From Desulfolithobacter dissulfuricans (GTDB lineage: Bacteria > Desulfobacterota > Desulfobulbia > Desulfobulbales > Desulfobulbaceae): DNA of 64,000 nucleotides. Both the position numbers and the translations under genes were made by a program. Each line of letters starts with the position of its first letter. Within the stretch, counting starts at the first letter, position 1. Under the pieces are notes generated by a model, which made no database searches, was not told the origin of the DNA, and saw only the letters and a list, made by a program, of their open reading frames with translations. This document shows positions 492-63,821 of the stretch, piece by piece. Location of the stretch: the NCBI RefSeq assembly GCF_025998535.1, contig NZ_AP024233.1:2240001-2304000 (forward strand), in the 5' to 3' direction.

Positions 492-1058
492 ATGACAGGA
501 ACCCAGGAGTCAGGCTCGAAAACCATGACCACGCCCCACACCAGTGAACAGACAGTGTGTCGAACACAGCCGAGTTCCATAGCCATCTATCCCGGTACCT
601 TTGATCCCATCACCAATGGCCATGTGGACATAATCAAGCGGGCGCTGCGGCTCTTTGACAAAATCATCATCGCCGTGGCCATCAACGCCCAGAAAACCCC
701 GCTCTTTACCCTGGACGAACGCATCGACCTGATCAGGAGATGCTTCAGCAAGGAAAACGACCGCATAGAGGTGGATGCCACCAGCGGCCTGACCGTGGAC
801 TATGCCATGGAACGCGGGGCCTGTGCCATTGTCCGGGGCCTGCGGGCAGTATCCGATTTTGACTACGAGTTCCAGCTGGCGCTGATGAACCGGAAACTGC
901 AGCGAAAAATCGAGACGGTCTTCCTGATGACCGGTTTCCGCTGGATCTACATCTCCTCGTCCATCATCAAGGATGCGGCCAAACATGGCGGCGATGTTAG
1001 CGGAGTGGTGCCGGCCCATGTCCAGGCCGCTCTGAAACAGAAATACAGCCAGCACTGA
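492..1058 (+). CDS. coaD: Phosphopantetheine adenylyltransferase
   Basis: Catalyses the fourth step of coenzyme A synthesis, ATP plus 4'-phosphopantetheine to dephospho-CoA. The core shows GTFDP (35-39), the nucleotidyltransferase motif TNGH (41-44) and the ISSSIIKDAA motif near the C-terminus. The protein is 188 residues against the usual 155-165; the excess is N-terminal. ATGs at 492 and 525 are both possible, and a GTG at 555 (codon 22) would give a family-length protein; no start has a convincing Shine-Dalgarno. The extra N-terminal stretch contains a diverged copy of the 18-bp repeat found elsewhere in this window (555-572). Downstream the Rieske gene starts 2 bases after the stop, suggesting co-transcription. 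Confidence 0.93.
   Translation: MTGTQESGSKTMTTPHTSEQTVCRTQPSSIAIYPGTFDPITNGHVDIIKRALRLFDKIIIAVAINAQKTPLFTLDERIDLIRRCFSKENDRIEVDATSGLTVDYAMERGACAIVRGLRAVSDFDYEFQLALMNRKLQRKIETVFLMTGFRWIYISSSIIKDAAKHGGDVSGVVPAHVQAALKQKYSQH
555..572 (+). repeat. Diverged single copy of the 18-bp TGTC-N3-GACA repeat at the coaD 5' end
   Basis: Reads gtgtgtcgaacacagccg, 16 of 18 matches to the unit GTGTGTCGAAGACAGACG. It is preceded by CA as in most copies. It is translated as VCRTQP in the N-terminal extension of CoaD, if that extension is translated at all. The changed base leaves a different small palindrome, TGTGT-CGA-ACACA. A tandem partner is not clear: the 18 bases upstream keep only the CAGAC end. Confidence 0.55.
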
Positions 1059-3495: not shown

Positions 3496-5028
3496 CTAAT
3501 CCACCCGCAGCAGGGTCAATCTTTCCGGGGCCAGAAACCGGTTCAGCAGGATTTCACCATCCAGCTGATCCAGCTTAGTGGCCGTGCTTCCGGCCAGGGC
3601 CTGGTACACCTGCATGAGCCTGGTTCCATAACCTTCCAGGCTGTACCTGGCGGCAAGAATCTCCCGGTTGTGAGCGATGTCTTCCCGGCAGGCTGCCGGA
3701 TCAGGAAAAAAGGTGGGTTCAAGATGCCCGGCTTCCTGCGGATCGGCCACCACCCGGCGCAGGACAATCTCCTGCATCTCCTCGTCCAACCGCCCGAAAT
3801 CAACCCGGTCATTCTGGATCCAGGCCTCGAGGAGCCGCTCGAGGCTGTCCGGAGCCGGCCGACGACCATAGGCTTCCAGGCTCCGCTCAAGACCAGCCCA
3901 GGCCCGGTCACGGATCCTGCCCCGGCCCAGCCATTCCACCGGCACCCCGAGCCGGTGGTACAGCAGCGGTAAGCGGACCCCCTCATCCCGGAACTCATCG
4001 GTTATTTCCGGCAGGTCCCGGCCGCAGACCGGCCGCCCGGCCAACCACGGCTCCAGGAAGGCGAGCCCGAATCCCTCGGCCACGCTGGTGGTCACAAGAG
4101 CACTGGCCTGCCTGAGCAATCCTTCAAAACTCTGTCCCGGACGACGTGAGAGCTCAAACTCCACCGGCAGCCCCAGCTCGGCCGCCAGCCGCTTCCAGGC
4201 CTCGTACCGGGGCCGTTCCCGCGGATTCTCCGGCCCCATGGTGGTGGCAAACCGGTGGCCGGGACCTGCCACCGCCGCCCACAGGAGAAATTCACCCAGG
4301 TTCTTGCGCCGGATGGCCCGGGTGGGATAAAGCCAGAGGTGCTCCGTCTGTCTTCGACACACCGTCTGTCTTCGACACACTGCTTCGGAAACCACCTGGT
4401 CCTCTCCGGCCGGCAGCGAGTCTGGCAGCTGGACAGGATTTGGCAGCCGCCACAGGCATGCCTCATCAACCCCGGCTTCACGGAGGAAAGTACAATCCCT
4501 CCGGTTGAGCACCCCGTAATGGACATGGGCACCGCGGGGATAGAGCAGTCGGGACATGGTAGCCGGATCATGACCGGCCAGTTTATCCAGCATCAGGTGA
4601 TAGTTGGCCGGCCGGCCATCCTCGGCAAAATCGTGGATGTGGAGCAGGAGGTGGTGCCCCTTTTCGGCCAGGCCATGCAGGGCCACGGGCAGGGCCAGGT
4701 TCTTGCCCAGGGAGTGGTTATGGACATGCCAGAGATCCGGCACTCCGCCCAGGGCATCGGTGGCGGCATCCACCATCTGCTGCTCAAGCCGGGCCGGCGA
4801 CACCGGGTCCCGCACCCCTTCATAGAGCAGTCCTGGAAGGACCCGGACCGGGATCGGCAGAGGGTCCGGTGGAGCCTTGCCGGTCAGAACCACCAGAGAA
4901 ACCCTGTAGTCGTCTGTCTTCGACACACCGTCTGTCTTCGACACACTGGCCAGACCGCGAACAGTGTGCTCGATAATCCGGCTCACGCCGCCGGGCTGCA
5001 GATGATAGTGGACTATGGCAATACGCAT
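3496..5028 (-). CDS. Glycosyltransferase family 4-like protein carrying two in-frame repeat insertions
   Basis: A 510-residue GT-B fold glycosyltransferase. The N-terminal domain begins MRIAIVHYHLQPGGVSR, the C-terminal nucleotide-sugar domain begins near LWLYPTRAIRRKN, and the E-x7-E motif EGFGLAFLE is present. Two tandem 18-bp repeat pairs lie inside the gene: one translated as VSKTDGVSKTD after the first helix, one as VCRRQTVCRRQT in the linker just before the C-terminal domain. They sit in different reading frames of the repeat and both preserve the gene frame. The sugar donor and acceptor are unknown; the neighbourhood suggests glycosylglycerate-type solute synthesis. Start ATG at 5028 fits the family N-terminus. 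Confidence 0.82.
   Translation of the reverse strand: MRIAIVHYHLQPGGVSRIIEHTVRGLASVSKTDGVSKTDDYRVSLVVLTGKAPPDPLPIPVRVLPGLLYEGVRDPVSPARLEQQMVDAATDALGGVPDLWHVHNHSLGKNLALPVALHGLAEKGHHLLLHIHDFAEDGRPANYHLMLDKLAGHDPATMSRLLYPRGAHVHYGVLNRRDCTFLREAGVDEACLWRLPNPVQLPDSLPAGEDQVVSEAVCRRQTVCRRQTEHLWLYPTRAIRRKNLGEFLLWAAVAGPGHRFATTMGPENPRERPRYEAWKRLAAELGLPVEFELSRRPGQSFEGLLRQASALVTTSVAEGFGLAFLEPWLAGRPVCGRDLPEITDEFRDEGVRLPLLYHRLGVPVEWLGRGRIRDRAWAGLERSLEAYGRRPAPDSLERLLEAWIQNDRVDFGRLDEEMQEIVLRRVVADPQEAGHLEPTFFPDPAACREDIAHNREILAARYSLEGYGTRLMQVYQALAGSTATKLDQLDGEILLNRFLAPERLTLLRVD
4345..4380 (-). repeat. In-frame tandem 2 x 18-bp repeat (copy A) in the glycosyltransferase gene
   Basis: Two identical units GTGTGTCGAAGACAGACG (minus strand) at 4380-4363 and 4362-4345. 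They are read as VCRRQT twice, in the predicted linker before the C-terminal Rossmann domain. No frameshift or stop results. The preceding bases are CA as in most copies. Confidence 0.95.
4911..4946 (-). repeat. In-frame tandem 2 x 18-bp repeat (copy B) in the same glycosyltransferase gene
   Basis: Two identical units GTGTGTCGAAGACAGACG on the minus strand, base for base the same as copy A but read in another frame, giving VSKTDG then VSKTDD. The site is a predicted loop after the first helix of the N-terminal domain. Identity of copies A and B at DNA level, with different protein output, shows the conservation is of DNA, not protein. Confidence 0.95.
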
Positions 5029-7235: not shown

Positions 7236-7631
7236 TTACCTCGGGCTCCGGCCATAGTCGTCTTCAAGTCGTTCGATATCGTCTTCACCAAAATAATCGC
7301 CCAGCTGGACCTCGATAAAGACCAGGTCCTCCTGGTCGTCGTTCTGCACCCGGTGCACAGCCCCCCGGGCAATATCCACCGATTCTCCCGGCCCCAGAAC
7401 CAGGAACCGGTCATCCAGGGTCACACCGGCCCGGCCGGAAACCACCAGCCAGTGTTCCTGGCGATGGCGGTGGCGCTGGAGGGAAAGCCGCTGACCGGGC
7501 AGAACGACGATCCGTTTCACCTTGTGATCCTTTTCGTCAGCCAGCACAGTGAACCTTCCCCAGGGCCTGTGCTCCGTAATCTGGACAGTGTGTCTCTGAC
7601 AGATGAACTCCTGCGTGGTGATGTCACCCAT
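7236..7631 (-). CDS. Cupin protein of the mannose-6-phosphate isomerase type II family
   Basis: 131 residues forming one cupin barrel closely like the stand-alone C-terminal domain of bifunctional mannose-1-phosphate guanylyltransferase/phosphomannose isomerase: PWGRFTVL, KRIVVLPGQRLSLQRH, then HRQEHW and GAVHRVQN. The metal-binding His and Glu of the cupin motif are present. It could supply mannose phosphate for GDP-mannose, which a mannosyltransferase in the same cluster would use. The stop lies 7 bases before the M20-like start and contains part of its ribosome-binding site. The N-terminal stretch EFICQRHTVQITEH contains a diverged copy of the 18-bp repeat. Confidence 0.82.
   Translation of the reverse strand: MGDITTQEFICQRHTVQITEHRPWGRFTVLADEKDHKVKRIVVLPGQRLSLQRHRHRQEHWLVVSGRAGVTLDDRFLVLGPGESVDIARGAVHRVQNDDQEDLVFIEVQLGDYFGEDDIERLEDDYGRSPR
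7588..7605. repeat. Possible decayed 18-bp repeat in the cupin gene
   Basis: Plus strand gtgtgtctctgacagatg matches the unit at 14 of 18 positions. The palindromic arms TGTC and GACA are intact and only the three-base centre and one end base differ; CA precedes it as in other copies. One such match in 64 kb could be chance. Confidence 0.35.
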
Positions 7632-13652: not shown

Positions 13653-13824
13653 CTGATTACCACTGAAATTCAGTCTTCGATGGATAAAGGTGTCGGCCTC
13701 GCTTGTTGCACGGGTGTCTGTGGCCTGGATGGCCACAGTCAAGCCCCCAGGGACGGGTTTATGGCGTCCCGTGAAACAAGCGAGGCCGACACCGGTTTCA
13801 ATGCTGAAGATTGATGGTAATCAC
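13653..13824. mobile_element. Miniature transposon-like element, TGATTACC ends, 172 bp, with 10-bp target duplication
   Basis: The ends are an imperfect terminal inverted repeat: gattaccactgaaattcag on the left and the complement of ctgaagattgatggtaatc on the right. The 10-bp direct repeat aaaagtttat flanks it at 13643-13652 and 13825-13834, as expected of a target duplication. Inside, a perfect 19-bp inverted repeat (ggtgtcggcctcgcttgtt and its complement) encloses two further hairpins (around tggcc/ggcca and gggacg/cgtccc). It encodes nothing. It lies in the 369-base gap between the phasin-like and UbiB-like genes, together with the repeat at 13900. The same ends occur at 35017-35079 with a different, much shorter core. 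Confidence 0.85.
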
Positions 13825-25184: not shown

Positions 25185-27244
25185 ATCGAGTAGGGTGAGG
25201 CAAGGTAATTAAGCTTGCCTCATCCCTCTCACAGAACCGTACGTACGGGCCTCGTATACGGCTCCTGTTTATTTTCCTTCATACTGAAACAGAAATTCCG
25301 GTCTGTACAGATGCGAGGTCAAAGAGCCCCATTTCCCCATGCAGGCAGCTGTTGGGAAGGGCATAATGGCTCAGTGGACTTGCTGCATTGGCCCAGGAGT
25401 CCATCTTGATACTTTTGAACTCTCCTCTATAGCCCAGCTGTCTCAGTCTGCGGTGTAGCCTGCGCGGCTTTTTCCACAGCTTCAACTGAACAGCACGCAG
25501 CCGTCTTCTGATCCACCTCATCAGCCGAGAAAACTCTCCCTTGCAGTTCGCTATCCGAAAGTAGTTGGCAAAACCCCTCAGCAACCGGTTGAGATCGGCT
25601 ATCACCTTCTCAAGGTTCACCGGGGAGTTACGCCGGGTCATCGCCTTGACCTTCGCCTTGAAGGCCCTCACCTTGCCTCGCTGTATTCGGGTCATCACGG
25701 AGTGGATACAAACTCCGAGAAATTTAATCCCTTTGAGGCTGTGGCTTATATGGGTCTTTTCCTGGTTGACGGTCAACAGCAGTTCTTCTTCAAGATAACG
25801 ACTGGCCTGGTTCAGTGCATTTTCGGCTGCGCTCTTTGACTGGCACAGGATCAGGATGTCGTCCGCATAGCGGACGATGCGGTGGCCACGATTCTTCATA
25901 AACTGATCGAAGGAATCAAGGTATACGTTGGCAATCAACGGGCTGATAACTCCGCCCTGCGGACTGCCGACCTCGCTGGCCTGCCAACCATCTCCTGTCA
26001 GAACTCCGCTTTTCAAAAACTTCTCCAGCAGACCAAGAATACTTCCATCACTGACCCGGCGACGGAACGAGGCAAGGATCAGGTCATGGTTCAACGTGTC
26101 GAAGCATTTCGACAGATCCATGTCCACTACCCATTTCCGCTCGTACGTCCGGATGAACATCGTGGCTTTGCTGATTGCCTGGTGACAACTCCGACCAGGA
26201 CGGTAGCCGTAGCTCGACGGATGGAAATCGCGGTCAAATATTGGTTGAAGTATATCCAGCAGGGCCTGCTGTACCACACGGTCACGGACTGCAGGTATGC
26301 CGAGTAGCCGTTTCCCGCCGTTCGGCTTCGGGATCTCCACCCGTCGCGCGGCCAGCGGCTGGTAGCTCTTGTCCTGCAGTTCCGTCAGGAGATGATCGAT
26401 ATTGGTCGCAAGTGATCCGGCAAAATCATCGATGGACTGGCCGTCTATACCGGCAGCTCCTTTCGAGGATTTCACCTTGTAGAATGCCTTGACCAGGTTC
26501 TCCCGGCTCAGCATTCGATCATATAGGCTGTACCAGACGTCAACCATGCTCCTGTCCTGCGTTTCCCTTCCTCTATTTCCACGTGGAGACTTCGGTTCTT
26601 CAATGGGCGCGACCGCTTTCTATCCTCATGGGCAATATACGATCAACACTCCCATCTACTCCGATGAACGGCCAAAATCGGCAGAGGACCTGTCACGGCA
26701 TACCGCCGATAGCGTGCCCCGTCCCGTCGGACGGCTTGTGTTCAGTCTGCCAGGTGTCCATAGATTCCGGAAAACCTTCAAATAAACTTCATCCCTTCGC
26801 AACAGATATGGCTTTTGGCTCATAACTGCCCCCAACGAACCAGGCCGTTGGGTCATCCCGGTTTTATCCTCCACACTGTTACCAGGCTTCACAGGCCGGA
26901 ATTTCATCACTACTACGGAATCATCTGCCACCTCACACCGCTTCGATCCGCCTTGGATTTCTCCTTGTGCTTCTCTTTTTCCGCTTAATGCGGAAACAGT
27001 GCAAGGCTTCCCCGGTTAAGGCGAACTCCCTGTGAGCGACCGCATCCTCAATCACGTATCAGGACTGACCAGGTATCGGGCTTCGCGCTATTTAGGACGC
27101 TTACCCTCCTGATACGCCGAATCAGGTTCGCTTGCGCTATGTGCCGCTCACCTCCTATCGCTTCCTTCAGACCCTGCCGTTACCAGCAACGCCCTTACGA
27201 CTCGGATTGTCTTCCCCCTGGTCAGGGTGACGCCTGCTTAACAC
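25185..27244 (-). mobile_element. Group II intron encoding a maturase without endonuclease domain
   Basis: On the minus strand the 3' end has a recognisable domain V: GAGCCGTATACGAG, a short loop, then CGTACGTACGGTTC (about 25259-25231), followed by a domain VI helix with a bulged-A region (gaggcaagcttaattacc ttgcctc) and the terminal CTACTCGAT ending near 25185. The 5' part (27244 to 26600) contains domain I-type sequence such as GTCGTAAGGGCG and GGTCTGAAGGAAGCG. The 5' border is set at gtgttaag (27244) by analogy with GUGYG starts and is uncertain by tens of bases. It lies downstream of a terminator on its own strand and runs antisense toward the end of the PFOR gene without interrupting it. 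Confidence 0.85.
25279..26547 (-). CDS. ltrA: Group II intron reverse transcriptase/maturase
   Basis: 422 residues inside the group II intron. The reverse transcriptase domain spans roughly 15-290 with SKGAAGIDG, EIPKPNGGKRLLGIP, SPQGGVISPL (196-204) and the catalytic YADD (227-230). It is followed by the maturase (X) domain with GFANYFRIA and a basic C-terminus. There is no HNH endonuclease, so mobility would use nascent DNA strands or other target-primed routes, as for endonuclease-less introns. The frame is intact, so the intron may be active. Confidence 0.95.
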   Translation of the reverse strand: MVDVWYSLYDRMLSRENLVKAFYKVKSSKGAAGIDGQSIDDFAGSLATNIDHLLTELQDKSYQPLAARRVEIPKPNGGKRLLGIPAVRDRVVQQALLDILQPIFDRDFHPSSYGYRPGRSCHQAISKATMFIRTYERKWVVDMDLSKCFDTLNHDLILASFRRRVSDGSILGLLEKFLKSGVLTGDGWQASEVGSPQGGVISPLIANVYLDSFDQFMKNRGHRIVRYADDILILCQSKSAAENALNQASRYLEEELLLTVNQEKTHISHSLKGIKFLGVCIHSVMTRIQRGKVRAFKAKVKAMTRRNSPVNLEKVIADLNRLLRGFANYFRIANCKGEFSRLMRWIRRRLRAVQLKLWKKPRRLHRRLRQLGYRGEFKSIKMDSWANAASPLSHYALPNSCLHGEMGLFDLASVQTGISVSV

Positions 27245-35016: not shown

Positions 35017-35079
35017 GTGATTACCACTGAAATTCAGCCACCGATACCGGTTTCAATGCTGAAGATTGATGGTAATCAG
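35017..35079. mobile_element. Short copy (63 bp) of the TGATTACC miniature element, with 10-bp target duplication
   Basis: The left 19 bases (gattaccactgaaattcag) and the right ~32 bases ending tggtaatc are identical to the ends of the element at 13653-13824, but the long internal stem is gone. The 10-bp direct repeat attgttcttt flanks it at 35007-35016 and 35080-35089. Removing the element and one repeat restores the reading ...gaacaaTGA, so the insertion happened exactly at the stop codon of the AsmA-like gene. Confidence 0.9.
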
Positions 35080-50219: not shown

Positions 50220-51461
50220 TCAGACGATGTTCTTCATCCATTCCCGGAGCCGCTGCACCACACCGCTGCGGCTTTTCTGCCCATATTTCCGTTCCTCGCT
50301 GCCATAGAGCACCAGCCCCACCGCCGTGGTGCAACGAGGTGATTCCACCTCTTCCACCTTGCCACCGATCCCCTGGGGATAGCCGATCCGCACCGGCATA
50401 TCGAATATCTGCTCGGCCATTTCCACGATATGGGGCAGCAGCACGGTGCCGCCGGTCAGAACCAGGCCGGCGTTGATCCGGTTGCGATAGCCGGAGGAAC
50501 AGATGTTCTTGTTCACCAGCTCGAGGATCTCCTCCATCCGTGCCTCGAGAATCTCCACCATGACCCGCTGGGAGACCTTGCGCGGTTTCCGGTCGCCCAC
50601 CGTGGGCACCTCGATGATATGGTTGTCCTTGACCATGGACGACAGGGCCCCGCCATAAAGGTACTTCAACTGTTCCGCTTCCTGGAGCGGCGTCCGCAAC
50701 CCGATGGAGAGATCCGAGGTCAGGTTGTTGCCGCCAAGCGCCAGTTCCCAGGTGTGTTTGATGGTCCCGTTACAGAAAATAGCCAGGTCCGTGGTCCCAC
50801 CGCCGATATCCAGGAGCGCCACCCCCAGCTCCATCTCGTCCCGCTTCAGGACCGCCCGGGAGGATGCCACGGATTCAAGAACAATATCAGCCACCTGGAG
50901 ACCGGAACGGTTGCAGCTGGTCATCAGGTTGTGCAGCGAGGTCACATCCGCAGTGACGATATGGACATTGGTCACCAGCCGCACCCCGGTCATGCCCAGC
51001 GGATTCTGGATCCCGGTGTGGTCATCCACCATGTATTCCTGGGGCAGGACGTGGATGATCTGCTGGTTGTCGGAAATCTTTACCGTCCGGGCGGCCTCGA
51101 TCACGGCCTCGATATGCTTCTGCCGGATTTCCTGGTTGTTGATGGCGATGATACCCGGCGAGTTGAATCCCTTGATATGGTTGCCGGCAATGCCCACGTA
51201 GACACTCTCGATATCACAGCCAGCCATTTCCTCGGCTTCGCTCAAGGCCTGGAGAATGGCTTTGACCGTGGACTCGATATTGACCACCACCCCTTTCTTC
51301 ATGCCCGAGGAAGCGGCCGTGCCCACACCGATGATATCGACCCGGTCCGGAAAGACCTCACCGATGACCGCGCATATCTTGGTGGTGCCGATATCCAGGC
51401 CGGCGATCAGCTCGCCCATTTCCTGGCCATCTGCACCGTGTGCATCCTTCACACTGGTCAT
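50220..51461 (-). CDS. ftsA: Cell division protein FtsA
   Basis: 413 residues of the actin-like membrane anchor of FtsZ: phosphate-1 motif AGLDIGTTKICAVIGE, DIGGGTTDLAIFCNGT, the adenosine motif LTGGTVLLPHIVEMAEQIF, and a C-terminal amphipathic helix (RLREWMKNIV). The start codon lies one base after a copy of the 18-bp repeat, whose altered sequence supplies GGAG eight bases upstream. The ftsA-ftsZ gap (187 bases) has no further gene. Confidence 0.97.
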   Translation of the reverse strand: MTSVKDAHGADGQEMGELIAGLDIGTTKICAVIGEVFPDRVDIIGVGTAASSGMKKGVVVNIESTVKAILQALSEAEEMAGCDIESVYVGIAGNHIKGFNSPGIIAINNQEIRQKHIEAVIEAARTVKISDNQQIIHVLPQEYMVDDHTGIQNPLGMTGVRLVTNVHIVTADVTSLHNLMTSCNRSGLQVADIVLESVASSRAVLKRDEMELGVALLDIGGGTTDLAIFCNGTIKHTWELALGGNNLTSDLSIGLRTPLQEAEQLKYLYGGALSSMVKDNHIIEVPTVGDRKPRKVSQRVMVEILEARMEEILELVNKNICSSGYRNRINAGLVLTGGTVLLPHIVEMAEQIFDMPVRIGYPQGIGGKVEEVESPRCTTAVGLVLYGSEERKYGQKSRSGVVQRLREWMKNIV

Positions 51462-51462
51462 T

Positions 51463-51498
51463 CGTCTATCTCCAACACACCGTCTGTTTCCAACACAC
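51463..51498 (-). repeat. Tandem 2 x 18-bp repeat (copy C) forming the ftsQ-ftsA spacer
   Basis: Minus strand units gtgtgttggaaacagacg (51498-51481) and gtgtgttggagatagacg (51480-51463). The stretch starts inside the ftsQ stop codon (TAG: the last base is the first repeat base) and ends two bases before the ftsA ATG, so it accounts for the whole spacer. Compared with the coding copies it has more changes, including an in-frame TAG in one frame, consistent with relaxed coding constraint. Confidence 0.92.
51470..51473 (-). promoter_or_regulatory. ftsA Shine-Dalgarno located inside the repeat
   Basis: Minus strand GGAG with eight bases to the ATG at 51461 (ggagatagacgaATG). The standard repeat unit reads GAAG at this place; the change to GGAG creates the ribosome-binding site. 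Confidence 0.7.
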
Positions 51499-52439
51499 TA
51501 CAGCTCCATTTTTGCAACAAGGACCTTGTTTTCGTCATAGTCCATCCGAATTTCAGCAACTTGTTCCATGGTCTTCTTTTGGTACAGCCGGTCGAGGATC
51601 TTGACCAGCCGTGCATACTTTGTCCGCATTCTTCCGCTGCCCAGATAAATAGGAAACGGCCGGTCCACCAGGTACATGACAAGTTCCTGCTCCGGGGTGA
51701 CATGAATTTCAGAGATCACCTGGACCGGGAGAACCGGATTGCCCCTGCGGGCGACCAGGCGGAGGAAATCCAGGGCCTGGGCCGCCGGGGTGCCTGGAAC
51801 AATCTGCATGCCATCCTGTTCCAGATCATCCTGGATGCCGGTCAGGACCGGAAAATCCAGCTCATAGCCGCTGACTACCCGGGCAAAGACCTCGCCATCG
51901 CTGTCCACGTAGTAGAGCCCGGACAGGTTGTCCCGGCCCTCGAAATTGATCATGGCCAGCGGCCGATGTTCCTGTACGGTCAGCACCAGGGCCGAGGGCC
52001 AGGAGCGGACCACGGTCACCGCGTCGATCCACGGATGTCCGGCAATACGCTTACTCACCTGATCCACATCCAGACGCAGGAGATTCATACCCCGCTCGAT
52101 GCCGGCCAGGTCGATGACGGCCTGGTCCTCAACCATCCGGTTACCCTGGACGGAGATGGTCACCAGCTTGAAGATGTCCGAGCCGGCAAGGACCCGGTAG
52201 GCCCCATACCCGCTGCAGCCAAGCAGCAGGGTCACCACCATGCACATCACCCCGCCCCTGGAGATCCGCCGCAGTTTCCACGATCGCCGGGCACTGGCCA
52301 CAAGGTTCTGCGAATACGGCCGACCGCTGGAAGCACCCCGCACACGGCGCAGCCACCCCGTGCAGGCCGACAACATCCTGCCGAGTCTTCCCGACCTTCC
52401 GGGCGGGGTGGATGAAAATTTCGGAGTGTACGGGGCCAT
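51498..52439 (-). CDS. ftsQ: Cell division protein FtsQ (DivIB-like)
   Basis: 313 residues. A cytoplasmic, basic N-terminus of ~60 residues, one membrane helix (GVMCMVVTLLLGCSGYGAYRVL), a POTRA domain (IFKLVTISVQGNRMVEDQAVIDLAGI) and the beta domain with PWIDAVTVVRSWPSALVLTVQEHRPLA. FtsQ links early and late divisome proteins. ATG 52439. The stop overlaps the repeat. No ddl gene lies between murB and ftsQ, unlike in many bacteria. Confidence 0.92.
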   Translation of the reverse strand: MAPYTPKFSSTPPGRSGRLGRMLSACTGWLRRVRGASSGRPYSQNLVASARRSWKLRRISRGGVMCMVVTLLLGCSGYGAYRVLAGSDIFKLVTISVQGNRMVEDQAVIDLAGIERGMNLLRLDVDQVSKRIAGHPWIDAVTVVRSWPSALVLTVQEHRPLAMINFEGRDNLSGLYYVDSDGEVFARVVSGYELDFPVLTGIQDDLEQDGMQIVPGTPAAQALDFLRLVARRGNPVLPVQVISEIHVTPEQELVMYLVDRPFPIYLGSGRMRTKYARLVKILDRLYQKKTMEQVAEIRMDYDENKVLVAKMEL

Positions 52440-58752: not shown

Positions 58753-61700
58753 TCAACTCAACTGGCCTGTTTGCAGGCTCAACCGGTCCTCCAGCCCGTG
58801 GATCACTCGCTCCATACGCATCCCGCGTGAGCCCTTGACCAGGATCCAGTCGTCCCCGGTCAGCCGGCCGCAGATAATAAGGGCATGGAGCCAGCCGGCC
58901 ATGGTGTCGGTATCGGTAAAGACCTGGATCTGCCGCGCATCCATGCCGCCCATCCGGGCCCCTTCGGCCACGGTATCGGCAAACCGGCCGGTGACGACCA
59001 GGAGATCGAAACCAAGCTCTGCCACCCGACGGCCCACCTCCGCATGGGCCTCCCGGGCTCCGTCCCCAAGTTCCAGCATGTCACCCAGGGCCGCCACCCG
59101 TCGGCAGTCTTTGCTGCCAAAGGATGATACGGTTTCCAGGGCCGCGGCCATGGAGGCGGGATTGGCATTGTAGGCATCGTTGACCACCTGGATACCGCCG
59201 GGCAGCCGGTATAGCTGCATCCGTTTATCCACCGCCCGATAGGCAACAAGCCCCTGAACAATGGTTTCCGGCGCTATCCCGGCCGCATGGGCGATGGCAG
59301 CTGCGGCGCAGCAGTTACTCACGTTGTGCAGTCCCGGCGCAGCCACGGTGAGCCGCTCCTTCCAGGGGCCGATATGGAGGGTGAAGCGGACGCCTTTTTC
59401 CCCAAGGTTTGCCACCCTGGTGGCCCGGACCTCGGGATTGTATTTTCTGCCCGCAGGGGTCACCGCAAAACCGATCTGGTGCTTCCCGGTACGCCGGGCC
59501 AACCGCCTTGTATGGGGGTTGTCGTAATTGACCACACAGACACCATCGGGTCGCATGGCGGCAAAGAGCTCGCCCTTGGCCTCCATGACCCCTTCCACGC
59601 TGCCCAGGCCTTCCAGATGGGCGGCCTGGACATTGGTGATACAGCCGATGTCCGGATCACCGATCCCGGTGAGGCGCTCGATTTCACCGGGCCGGTTCAT
59701 ACCCATCTCCAGGACAGCCAGCCGATGGGTGGCCCGCAGGGGAAGAAGCGACAGGGGCAGGCCGATCAGATTATTGAAGTTGCCCCGGGTCTTGAGCACC
59801 TCCCACGGCGGCTCGAGATGGCGGCTGAAAATGGCACCGGTCATCTCCTTGACCGTGGTCTTGCCGGAACTGCCGGTGATGGCGGCCACCGTGCATCTGC
59901 GGCCCGCCAAACGACGCCGAAATCCCGCCAGGTCGCCAAGAGCCCGCAGGGTGTCTTTGACCCGGACCGTCACAACCCCGGTATCCGGGCACGTTCGCGA
60001 AACCACGACGCAGGCCGCACCTTTTTCCACCGCTGCCTGGACATAGGCATGGCCGTCAAACCGCTCACCGACCAGGGCGACGAAGATGTCGCCGGGCTGG
60101 ATGGTCCTGCTGTCGGTGGAGACCCGGCCCGTCATGGCTTCAATCGGACCGGTGGCCACAACCCGACCCCTGGTCGCGGCGCAGACCAGGCGCGGATTCC
60201 AGGTCATGAGCCCGTTTTGCGCCTCGAGCCGGTCGTCAAAAAACCGTCGGCTCCCGGCCTGCCCGGCCGGACCGATGATCTGGCAGCTCTCATGTCCCTT
60301 GCCGGCGACAAGGACAATATCTTCCGGTTCAGCCAGGCAGCAGGCCAGATGGATGGCCTTCTTCCGATCCTCCACCAGGATATAGCCCCGCTGACGGAAA
60401 AAGAGCTCTGCCACTGGGTACCTGGCGAGCCCGCCTTCCCGTATACCTTCCTCGATAGCGGCCAGGATGACAAAGGGATTTTCGGTACGCGGATTATCCG
60501 AGGTCACCACCACCAGATCGGCCAGCTCGGCCGCGATCCGGCCCATCTCCGGTCGTTTGCCCTGGTCCCGGTCACCGCCGCAGCCAAAGACGCAGACAAG
60601 CCTGCCCCGGGCCAGGGGACGGAGGGTGGCCAGGACACTGGCCAGGGCATCGGGCGTGTGGGCATAATCGACGAACACGGTGGGAAAGAGTTCCGGAGGC
60701 CCCCCTTCCAGGCTGACCCGTTCCAGCCGACCGGGAACCTGCCCCACCGTGGCCAGACCCGCGGCCACCTGCTCCAGGTCCAGGCCAAGCGCCAGGCCGG
60801 CCCCGGCGGCGCTGAGCAGGTTGGCCATGTTGTATGTGCCGGTCAGGGAGGTGTCGAGTACCACCCTTGTGGTCTCATGTCGTCTATCTTCGACACACCG
60901 TCTGTCTGCGACACACTCCATGACCAGGCGGCTGCCGGTCACCCCCTGCTGTTCGATGCGCCCGCGCAGCTGACAGTCGGCCGTGAAACCGGAGGCAAGC
61001 AGCCGATAGCCACCGGTCGTCTGTCTTCGACACACCGTCTGTCTTCGACACACTGCCTCCAGCTCCGCATACAGCCGCCGTCCCCAGTCCTGCACCGTAT
61101 CGCCCATGGCGATGACCGCAACTCCGTCCGGGGCCAGGTAACGGGTGAAGAGCAGCTTCTTGGCCGCAAAATAGGATTCCATGTCACCGTGGAAATCCAG
61201 GTGATCACGGCTGAGGTTGGTAAAGACCGCCACATCAAACCTGAGCCCGGCCACCCGTTTCTGAACCAGGGCATGGGAGGAGACCTCCATGATCACGTGG
61301 CTCACCCCGGCCGCTGCCATTTCCGCCAGCAGACCCTGGAGCCGAACCGGATCCGGGGTGGTCAACGGTGCTTCCCGCAGGACCTGTTCTCCGCTGGCGT
61401 CGGTATAGCGGTAATTAACCGTCCCGATCACCCCCACCCGATTCCCCTGGTGGGTGAGCATGGCTTCCATGAGCCAGGAAGTGGTGGTCTTGCCGTTGGT
61501 GCCGGTGAGGCCGATCAGCACCATCTTCTGCGCCGGATGATCGTGCAGGGCCGCTGCCAGCAGACCAAGAGCCAGGTGTGTGTCTGCCACCCGGATCATC
61601 GCTACACCCGGGCCCGGTGCCGGTACTTCCCGCTCGACCACCACCGCGGCTGCTCCCTGGGCCACAGCCTGGAAGATAAAATCGTGCCCGTCCACCCGCT

Positions 61701-61854
61701 CTCCGGCAAGGGCGACAAAGAGACTGCCCGGCTCCACCGCCCTGGAATCGGCGGCAATGGCCGTTATTTCCGGAGCAGGGCTGTCCGCCTGCACCTGGAG
61801 CACCAGGTCCCGGGGCAGGGAATCTATCAGGGCATCAAGTTTCATGCTTTCCAT
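58753..61854 (-). CDS. murE: Fused MurE-MurF ligase with two in-frame repeat insertions
   Basis: 1033 residues in one open frame. Residues ~1-520 are MurE (adds meso-diaminopimelate): DSRAVEPGSLFVALAG, P-loop GTNGKTTTSWL, and the DAP-type signature SDNPRTENP. Residues ~545-1033 are MurF (adds D-Ala-D-Ala): STDSRTIQPGDIFVAL, P-loop GSSGKTTVKEM, NPASMAAALE. The join reads DDRLEAQNGLMTWNPRL, with a Met where murF would normally start, so the fusion looks like loss of the murE stop. Two tandem 18-bp repeat pairs lie in the middle domain of the MurE half, in two different reading frames. Natural MurE-MurF fusions are known in a few bacteria. Confidence 0.92.
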   Translation of the reverse strand: MESMKLDALIDSLPRDLVLQVQADSPAPEITAIAADSRAVEPGSLFVALAGERVDGHDFIFQAVAQGAAAVVVEREVPAPGPGVAMIRVADTHLALGLLAAALHDHPAQKMVLIGLTGTNGKTTTSWLMEAMLTHQGNRVGVIGTVNYRYTDASGEQVLREAPLTTPDPVRLQGLLAEMAAAGVSHVIMEVSSHALVQKRVAGLRFDVAVFTNLSRDHLDFHGDMESYFAAKKLLFTRYLAPDGVAVIAMGDTVQDWGRRLYAELEAVCRRQTVCRRQTTGGYRLLASGFTADCQLRGRIEQQGVTGSRLVMECVADRRCVEDRRHETTRVVLDTSLTGTYNMANLLSAAGAGLALGLDLEQVAAGLATVGQVPGRLERVSLEGGPPELFPTVFVDYAHTPDALASVLATLRPLARGRLVCVFGCGGDRDQGKRPEMGRIAAELADLVVVTSDNPRTENPFVILAAIEEGIREGGLARYPVAELFFRQRGYILVEDRKKAIHLACCLAEPEDIVLVAGKGHESCQIIGPAGQAGSRRFFDDRLEAQNGLMTWNPRLVCAATRGRVVATGPIEAMTGRVSTDSRTIQPGDIFVALVGERFDGHAYVQAAVEKGAACVVVSRTCPDTGVVTVRVKDTLRALGDLAGFRRRLAGRRCTVAAITGSSGKTTVKEMTGAIFSRHLEPPWEVLKTRGNFNNLIGLPLSLLPLRATHRLAVLEMGMNRPGEIERLTGIGDPDIGCITNVQAAHLEGLGSVEGVMEAKGELFAAMRPDGVCVVNYDNPHTRRLARRTGKHQIGFAVTPAGRKYNPEVRATRVANLGEKGVRFTLHIGPWKERLTVAAPGLHNVSNCCAAAAIAHAAGIAPETIVQGLVAYRAVDKRMQLYRLPGGIQVVNDAYNANPASMAAALETVSSFGSKDCRRVAALGDMLELGDGAREAHAEVGRRVAELGFDLLVVTGRFADTVAEGARMGGMDARQIQVFTDTDTMAGWLHALIICGRLTGDDWILVKGSRGMRMERVIHGLEDRLSLQTGQLS
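60881..60916 (-). repeat. In-frame tandem 2 x 18-bp repeat (copy D) in murE
   Basis: Minus strand units gtgtgtcgcagacagacg and gtgtgtcgaagatagacg, each one base from the consensus. They are read as CVADRR and CVEDRR. The changed base in the second unit would give TAG in another frame, but not in the frame used. Copy E lies 101 bases further upstream in the gene. Confidence 0.93.
61018..61053 (-). repeat. In-frame tandem 2 x 18-bp repeat (copy E) in murE
   Basis: Two perfect consensus units on the minus strand, read as VCRRQT twice, identical in DNA and in frame to copy A in the glycosyltransferase. Both are preceded by Glu-Ala, because the bases just outside the unit (CA) are also shared. 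Confidence 0.95.
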
Positions 61855-61929: not shown

Positions 61930-63821
61930 TCAGATAACCGGCTCCAGGGTCAACACACATTCCTGACCGGCGGCCAGGGGCTCTCCGGGACCCGGGCGCT
62001 GGCCGACTATCCGGCCGCTGCCCTGGATCCGGACCAGTATTTTCTTGCCATCGAGCCGCTGCAATCCCTTGCGCAGGCTCAAGCCCACCACCTCCGGCAT
62101 GGCCTCCCTGGGTAAAGGAGCGTATTTCTTTTTTTCTTCCCGGTACTCGATATGGCTGGCGATAAGAAACCGTTTGTAGTTGGCTTCATCCCGGCCGGCG
62201 GGATGGTCTGCCACCAGGGTCTGGCTGCTGCTCTCCAGGATGTCCGGCAGGAGTTCCATCCCCAGGTCGGCCAGAGACCGGGCCCTGGTATCGACCTCTC
62301 CGGGAAGCGGGTAGTAAGAGTCACGACTGGTAACCAGCAAGAGCAGAACCTGGGGGTTTTTCCTCGGGGTCACCCCGAGAACCAGGTCCTGCAGGACAGT
62401 TATTCTTGTCTGGTCCTTCACCTCGGTACGGCGGCCCGAGCGGCTGTACACGGCCATGGTCCCGCTGCCCTGCATGGTGGACAGGAGTTCCCGACGCAGC
62501 CTGAGTGCCAGGACCGGGTCAACCACCTGGCGACGTTTTTTGCGGTCATAACTTTCCGAACGGGTATAGGTCCGCCCTGTTGCCCGGTCATACACCGCCT
62601 CGAGGAAAACAGGTTCCACCCGACGACCGCCATTGATCATGCTGGCCGCCGCCGCCACCTTCAGAAGGGTGATCCCCTGCCCTGCGACATTATTCTGGCC
62701 GGCAGCCCCCACCACAGCCACCGACGGCAGTGTGTCGAAGACAGACGGTGTGTCGCAGACAGACGACCGGCCCGGCAGCGGGTTACGGAGCCCGAAACGG
62801 GCTCCGGCTTCCGCCACATCCCCGGCGGTCAACCCCAGGTCCGGAGCCGCGACTGCTTCCGGCGGCAATGGCGGGCCAAAAGGACCCTGGCTGCTGATCG
62901 CCCCGGCCCGGGCCAGCAGGGGCCGAACCAGGTCTTCTGCCAGGGGTTCACTGACCACCTGGTTACGGCGGGCCGGATCATCAGCCTGCCAGAAATGATT
63001 GGGATTAAACGATGGCAGGCTCACCATGGCCAGGATTCTGCCGGTACGGACCTCCATGGCCAGGGCCATGCCCCGGTCGGCGGCCTGTTGTTCCAGCATC
63101 CGGCCCAGCTCCTGCTCTATCTTCTTCTGCAGCTCAAGATCCAGGCTCAGGACCACATCCATGCCACGGCCGCCGAAACTCTCCTGGCCGCCAAAGTCGA
63201 TCTCCGGCACATCCGCGGCCTGGAGCTCGCCAGGCTGCAGGAGAATGTCATAGATGGACTCGGCTCCGGCCAGCCCTACCCCATCTCCTGAAAAACCTAC
63301 CACATGGGCACCGCTGGCATGGGCCGGATAATACCTGACCTCGGCCGGCCGGCAGTACACCCCGGGTAGCCGGCTGGCGCAGACCTCCCGGGCCGCGGCC
63401 TGCTCCAGGTTGTCGGCGATCTTGACCGTATGCCGGGGGAACGGAGCTGGCTGTCGATCTCAGCCCGGGAACGACCGGTCAGGCGGGCCAGGAGCCCGGC
63501 AATCTCTTTTTTATCCTCGATCTCGGCCGGCCGGACATACAGGCCAAACAGCGGATAGCTGACCGCCAGCTCCCGGTAGCTGCGATCATACACCGTGCCC
63601 CTCAAAACAGGTTCAGCGGACTCGATGTCCGCTGAAGAAGATGGCCTTTGGTCTGTCTTTGACAAACTGCCGGCAGCGAGCTGGATTATTCTGCCGATAT
63701 CCTGGAGGGAGAGAGGTAATCTGAACAGGAAAGATCCAGCTGCTACCAGCAAAAAGACAAGCAGTATACACAGGCAGAACTGCCTTTTTTTACGTTTCCG
63801 TGTCTTGGGAGGCCGTATCAT
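61930..63821 (-). CDS. FtsI-like protein lacking transpeptidase motifs, with PASTA domain (one-base frameshift)
   Basis: Position in the cluster and layout match the division transpeptidase FtsI: N-terminal membrane helix (CLCILLVFLLVAAGSF), RGTVYDRSYRELAVS, DVVLSLDLELQKKIEQ, GRILAMVSLPSFNPNHFW, then a C-terminal PASTA domain. But the SxxK site (EPGSTFK in active enzymes) reads EPLAEDL, the central SxN region is missing, and KTGT is replaced by RSGRRTE. The first ~130 codons are in another frame: minus strand cgttcccccggcata needs one more C (plus-strand G run 63435-63439) to give RSPRHTVKIADNLEQ. This is a likely sequencing error. Copy F of the 18-bp repeat lies in the degenerate catalytic domain. 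ATG 63821 has a poor ribosome-binding site. Confidence 0.85.
62730..62765 (+). repeat. In-frame tandem 2 x 18-bp repeat (copy F) in the ftsI-like gene, opposite orientation
   Basis: Plus strand gtgtgtcgaagacagacg then gtgtgtcgcagacagacg. Here the gene runs the other way, so the sense strand carries the complement and is read SVCDTP then SVFDTL. This is the only clear coding copy in reverse orientation relative to its gene, and shows that a reverse frame can also be used. Confidence 0.93.
63650..63667 (-). repeat. Diverged single 18-bp repeat near the ftsI-like N-terminus
   Basis: Plus strand ggtctgtctttgacaaac matches the complement of the unit at 15 of 18 positions and keeps the arms TGTC and GACA around a changed centre (TTT). 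It is read as SLSKTDQ in the protein. A tandem partner is not visible. Confidence 0.5.

Follow-up and report, generated by a model that had tools for sequence, protein, structure and literature searches.

A pair of 18-bp palindromic repeats between ftsQ and ftsA of a Desulfobulbaceae bacterium and its GGAG as a candidate replacement Shine-Dalgarno sequence

The window, i.e. the whole 64,000-nt stretch of DNA that was analysed, carries ftsQ and ftsA on its minus strand, and sequence, gene calls and Pfam matches agree with the initial annotation that a 36-bp repeat pair fills the spacer between them (Table 1). On the minus strand the junction reads ATG GAG CTG TA(G TGTGTTGGAAACAGACG GTGTGTTGGAGATAGACG) A ATG ACC, where the brackets enclose the 36 bp (51498-51463) and unit GTGTGTTGGAAACAGACG is followed by unit GTGTGTTGGAGATAGACG. 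The pair spans the distance from stop to ATG as described, but its first G is shared with the ftsQ stop codon, and the ftsA ATG (51461) begins after one further base (51462). A second stop codon split as TA/G at a repeat edge is found in an outer-membrane efflux gene (genome 3138656). Since the end of FtsQ (NKVLVAKMEL before the stop) resembles those of relatives (..VAKMEP and ..VAKVES), its C-terminus looks intact.

Past the ftsQ stop, no other in-frame start codon precedes the annotated ftsA ATG, which places 19 residues before the AGLDIG motif; in 69 relatives this lead ranges from 8 to 39 residues with a median of likewise 19, only starts that give at least 8 residues being taken into account. 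A start of ftsA elsewhere, which would have removed the basis for any role of the repeat in its translation, was considered as well; the sole alternative ATG, near 51419, leaves only 5 residues and has no Shine-Dalgarno (SD) sequence (-1.5 kcal/mol).

Table 1. Positions in the window of the ftsQ-ftsA junction features and of further repeat copies
Feature	Position	Strand	Remark
Distal repeat unit GTGTGTTGGAAACAGACG	51481..51498	-	first G doubles as the last base of the ftsQ TAG
Proximal repeat unit GTGTGTTGGAGATAGACG, adjoining ftsA	51463..51480	-	
GGAG, predicted ftsA Shine-Dalgarno sequence, at the tip of the proximal unit's weak hairpin	51470..51473	-	8 nt 5' of the ATG
GGAG in the last ftsQ codons (ATG GAG CTG), probable displaced ancestral Shine-Dalgarno sequence	51504..51507	-	
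ftsQ, 313 aa	51498..52439	-	Pfam POTRA_1 and FtsQ_DivIB_C; TAG stop at 51500-51498
ftsA, 413 aa	50220..51461	-	Pfam FtsA and SHS2_FTSA
murE repeat pair, in frame, peptide VCRRQTVCRRQT	61018..61053	-	absent from relatives
murE second repeat pair, peptide CVADRRCVEDRR	60881..60916	-	each aligned relative has a gap of exactly 12 residues
ftsI repeat pair, antisense, in frame (SSVCDTPSVFDTL)	62730..62765	+	
Single diverged unit in the N-terminal part of ftsI (SLSKTDQ)	63650..63667	-	
Repeat pair in predicted glycosyltransferase ORF (3496-5028)	4345..4380	-	
Further repeat pair in ORF 3496-5028	4911..4946	-	
Single diverged unit in cytidylyltransferase-like ORF (492-1058), in frame near its start	555..572	+	
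Single diverged unit, no predicted gene across it	7588..7605	+	

The junction pair is a diverged member (three mismatches in each unit, among the most diverged) of a repeat family comprising about 45 arrays with 67 units, whose host is one sulfate-reducing bacterium of the Desulfobulbaceae. The unit is an imperfect palindrome of 18 bp, GTGTGTC-NNN-GACAGACG, flanked by A on either side (unit consensus GTGTGTCGAAGACAGACG). Its centre, positions 8-10, is variable, the palindrome arms measure 7 bp, and the unit folds into a 4-bp stem, a mismatch, 2 further bp and a loop of 3. At up to 3 mismatches the genome of 3.6 Mb contains 67 matches compared to 8 for a reversed control pattern, and the window alone contains 14 compared to 0.05 expected in shuffles. 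Grouping of the matches in register and subsequent filtering yielded 24 single units, 20 head-to-tail pairs and one triple. An A is present 5' of 44 and 3' of 35 of these 45 arrays, and the array at ftsQ-ftsA has both. The arrays are clustered, with 26 gaps below 5 kb vs 2.7 expected (maximum 9 in 5000 simulations), and only 5 of the 45 lie in the first 1.7 Mb of the genome. Among all units only one case of close neighbours on opposite strands was observed (3128950/3128986). The evidence for structural selection on the stem is slight: double compensatory changes number 3 vs 0.43 expected in shuffles (P 0.005), and changed stem pairs still pair in 45% of cases vs 41% in shuffles, the units being related to each other.

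The family was absent from 257 other genomes of the order, the named relatives among which are Desulfobulbaceae, and each of these genomes had at most one or two isolated inexact matches. Near matches (AGTGTGTCTGCGACAGNCG) in one genus (g5) amount to 2-4 per genome and form no family. The exact pair pattern had no match in a collection of genome contigs from which the own genome is possibly excluded, and the 9 single-unit matches among viral contigs correspond by estimate to about chance level for the size of the collection. None of the five loci for Y1 transposases (Y1_Tnp) that were searched has a convincing unit nearby. Two other features of the window are a group II intron on the minus strand (25185-27189), another of which is present elsewhere in the genome, and a 38-bp direct repeat (13786-13823 and 35041-35078) with 97% identity and a distance of 21 kb.

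According to gene predictions, made outside the window with a simple codon-usage gene finder built for this analysis, about 32 of the 45 arrays are fully intragenic, 3 are at the edge of a gene and 10 are outside genes. Since the predicted coding share of the stretches around the repeats is 82%, coding sequence is neither avoided nor clearly preferred. The unit length is a multiple of three and all six frames of the consensus are free of stop codons; intragenic copies thus add 6 or 12 codons and leave the gene unbroken. All three sense frames (CVEDRR, SVSKTD, VCRRQT) and antisense frames as well are used, and the carriers identified by Pfam are LpxB-Smr, PdxA, RimM, MurE-MurF, FtsI, CbiG, CbiD, RecB, RecC, PlsY and a PEP-synthase-like protein. 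In alignments, CbiD shows a 12-residue insert; of the 10 relatives, 7 lack precisely 12 residues and the others 11-14. MurE, part of a fused murE-murF ORF (58753-61854), shows two inserts relative to its relatives. The triple unit joins LpxB and Smr into one ORF (genome 867795-869345); in relatives Smr is encoded by a separate ORF and LpxB ends exactly where the triple unit starts. A further pair lies within a cobalamin riboswitch (genome 2904031-2904254), which is intact apart from it and still scores 127.6 bits; this insert fits 36 or 37 bp, as the joining region differs by a base between paralogues. The pair in PdxA is located in a variable N-terminus of the alignment. Judged from such comparisons, the copies are evidently net insertions in genes and not sites made by substitution.

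Several carriers show additional peculiarities. The genes recB and recC (genome 3128318-3134003) contain several copies each, in both orientations. At the end of cbiD (genome 2896946-2896999) a degenerate middle unit provides the TGA stop codon, and the downstream gene, a methylase, has its ATG 2 nt past the array. ftsI is split into two overlapping frames (63297-63821 and 61930-63360), with the homology changing frame near 63420-63450; either the assembly is wrong here or this essential gene has a genuine frameshift.

Without the 36 bp the ftsQ-ftsA junction reads ATGGAGCTGTAAATG, in which the genes abut (CTG-TAA-ATG, 0 nt between them) and a GGAG in the last ftsQ codons, now 42 nt away, lies 6 nt before the ATG. 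The proposal that the insertion separated an earlier overlap of the two genes is thus weakened, since excision gives TAA-ATG. Of 69 relatives, for which the ftsA start was picked by the best SD sequence, 16 have a negative spacer, 38 one of 0-15 nt, 6 one of 16-40 nt and 9 one above 40 nt (median 6 nt). The empty form is therefore ordinary among relatives, and an ancestral abutting arrangement is likelier than an overlap. The repeat family was not found at 80 ftsA loci of relatives. The initial annotation would have been contradicted by relatives that have the same spacer length and an unrelated SD sequence without the repeat; repeat-free relatives do have unrelated SD sequences, but their spacer lengths vary, and among the closest (84% FtsA identity) some have 53-71 nt without any repeat. 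Although the empty site is a reconstruction, we consider it very likely that an insertion took place at this junction.

The GGAG reported 8 nt upstream of the ftsA ATG is present in the proximal unit. Within a spacing-limited window and assuming the standard anti-SD sequence for the host 16S, the pairing energy at the ftsA start is -6.4 kcal/mol, compared to -3.3 with the sequence of the distal unit, -1.5 with the family consensus and -5.6 for the empty junction. In sampled stretches of the genome a value of -6 is reached by 34% of ATG genes vs 7% of random sites. Taken by itself, the proximal unit forms a weaker hairpin (-2.4) than the consensus unit (-5.9), so that the GGAG would be more exposed; in the longer junction context the fold was no better than in shuffles. 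A ribosome-binding role of the repeat's GGAG for ftsA is plausible on sequence grounds, and it quite likely serves as the working SD sequence. Since the empty junction already has a GGAG 6 nt from the ATG, the repeat would have replaced a signal and not provided the first one; it probably displaced one SD sequence and supplied another.

The view that a mobile repeat became the ftsA translation signal thus stands in so far as its GGAG is the sole good SD sequence for the annotated start and the family inserts elsewhere, but the case for adaptation is weak. The change from GAAG to GGAG had been regarded as private to the ftsA-proximal unit; however, both units carry the A-to-G change, the distal one reading GGAA and the proximal one GGAG. 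GGAG occurs in 3 of the 67 units, including the proximal one, and in the array at genome 3133103 there is no start codon for it to serve. No part of the unit varies more than the loop, and tandem units have the same loop variant above chance (11 of 22, P 0.003). Due to the change in both units, the GGAG without a start codon and the shared loops of tandem units, selection of the GGAG for an SD role is unlikely, and the replacement signal is perhaps owed to the luck of a loop variant. The array at the cbiD junction, which ends 2 nt 5' of an ATG, reads GAAG and not GGAG, so that supply of an SD sequence is not a general property of the family.

We propose, with a probability of roughly 0.7 for the explanation as a whole, that the 36 bp consist of two units of the 18-bp imperfect palindrome, arranged head-to-tail, and that this palindrome has spread genome-wide as a small insertion element. 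One such insertion would have hit the stop-start junction of the formerly abutting ftsQ and ftsA (TAA-ATG), whereby the first G of the repeat remade the ftsQ stop from TA to TAG, the old SD sequence in the last ftsQ codons was moved 36 nt away, and a new GGAG was brought to a working distance from the ftsA ATG. That this family stands for a distinct class of ultra-short mobile palindromes (18 bp, 6 codons) that spread locally, double in tandem once they have arrived, are tolerated in any frame and strand and repeatedly rewire operon junctions (ftsQ/ftsA, lpxB-smr, CbiD, and a riboswitch whose fold stays recognisable) is a more tentative idea and less likely than not. If harmless entry into essential genes and operon junctions is true, such repeats would naturally give rise to gene fusions, small in-frame linkers and translation signals that are ready for use. 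A concrete testable case is the ftsQ-ftsA junction, where the replacement SD sequence would have come with the very insertion that displaced the old one.

It is less probable that the repeat is merely tolerated, with ftsA translated by coupling to ftsQ and the GGAG being a coincidental loop variant. The two genes share a reading frame at a distance of 36 nt, GGA loops are present in both fts units and in the array lacking a start codon, the loop is variable anyway, and relatives cope with very different junctions and SD sequences. Nevertheless, the GGAG is well spaced, is the best SD sequence for this start and is confined to few units. An operator or a nucleoid-organisation site, kept for its function and not as a selfish element, would fit a dyad with a variable 3-bp centre and the clustering of the arrays, but is very improbable for copies that are net gene insertions, not substitution-made sites, and that occur in both orientations, whether in coding regions, at gene junctions or in a riboswitch.

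Improbable, too, is the assignment of the family to aberrant, shortened CGTC-tagged REPs, mobilised as those are (PMC3733652). The opposite strand of the palindromic unit does start with CGTC, position 18 being G in 62 of the 67 units; CGTC-tagged REPs have no linked transposase (PMC3733652), in likeness to the present family as far as the five Y1 loci show, and intragenic CGTC and GTAG REPs, also short dispersed palindromes, have repair genes such as recBCD among their carriers (PMC3733652), as do the repeats in recB and recC described here. However, CGTC-tagged REPs have a stem of 8-9 bp and a loop of 4-5 nt outside an unpaired tag, and head-to-head dimers predominate while head-to-tail ones are negligible (PMC3733652), whereas the 18-bp unit has a stem of 4 bp plus 2 after the mismatch, a loop of 3 and a partly paired tag, and 21 of its arrays are head-to-tail. 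The mismatch in stem, loop and dimer orientation argues for a variant working like CGTC REPs and against membership.

Returning to the insertion element that we favour, intragenic bacterial palindromes and TAG stops from REP ends are already known, as GTAG REP ends often give neighbouring ORFs their TAG stop codon (PMC3733652). In contrast to REPs, which usually avoid coding sequence (PMC3733652), the 18-bp family is mostly intragenic and paired head-to-tail. It also differs from GTAG REPs and REPINs with RAYTs, since its consensus contains no GTAG and the Y1_Tnp genes present are unflanked by units. MITEs have terminal inverted repeats of 15-30 bp (PMC3733652) in contrast to palindrome arms of 7 bp. 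With respect to a target-site duplication, most arrays have A..A flanks, and the 12-codon inserts permit only 0 bp or a multiple of 3 bp. Cyanobacterial small dispersed repeats, as reportedly described by Elhai and colleagues in 2008, are very short, apparently mobile hairpins with a mobility mechanism said to be unknown; by this description, not by sequence, they resemble the 18-bp family in being very short hairpin repeats, but are reportedly mainly intergenic. The term small dispersed repeats occurs in PMC3116915. The palindromic elements of about 150 bp reported from Rickettsia (PMC10969869, PMC3733652) resemble the family, by description, in being palindromic and in adding an extra peptide by in-frame insertion in unrelated housekeeping genes (here MurE, CbiD and LpxB-Smr), whereas the insertions in the Desulfobulbaceae host are 18, 36 or 54 bp long (6 codons per unit). 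The closest known systems are thus the intragenic CGTC/GTAG REPs and the Rickettsia palindromic elements, of which the 18-bp family is a shorter, head-to-tail variant.
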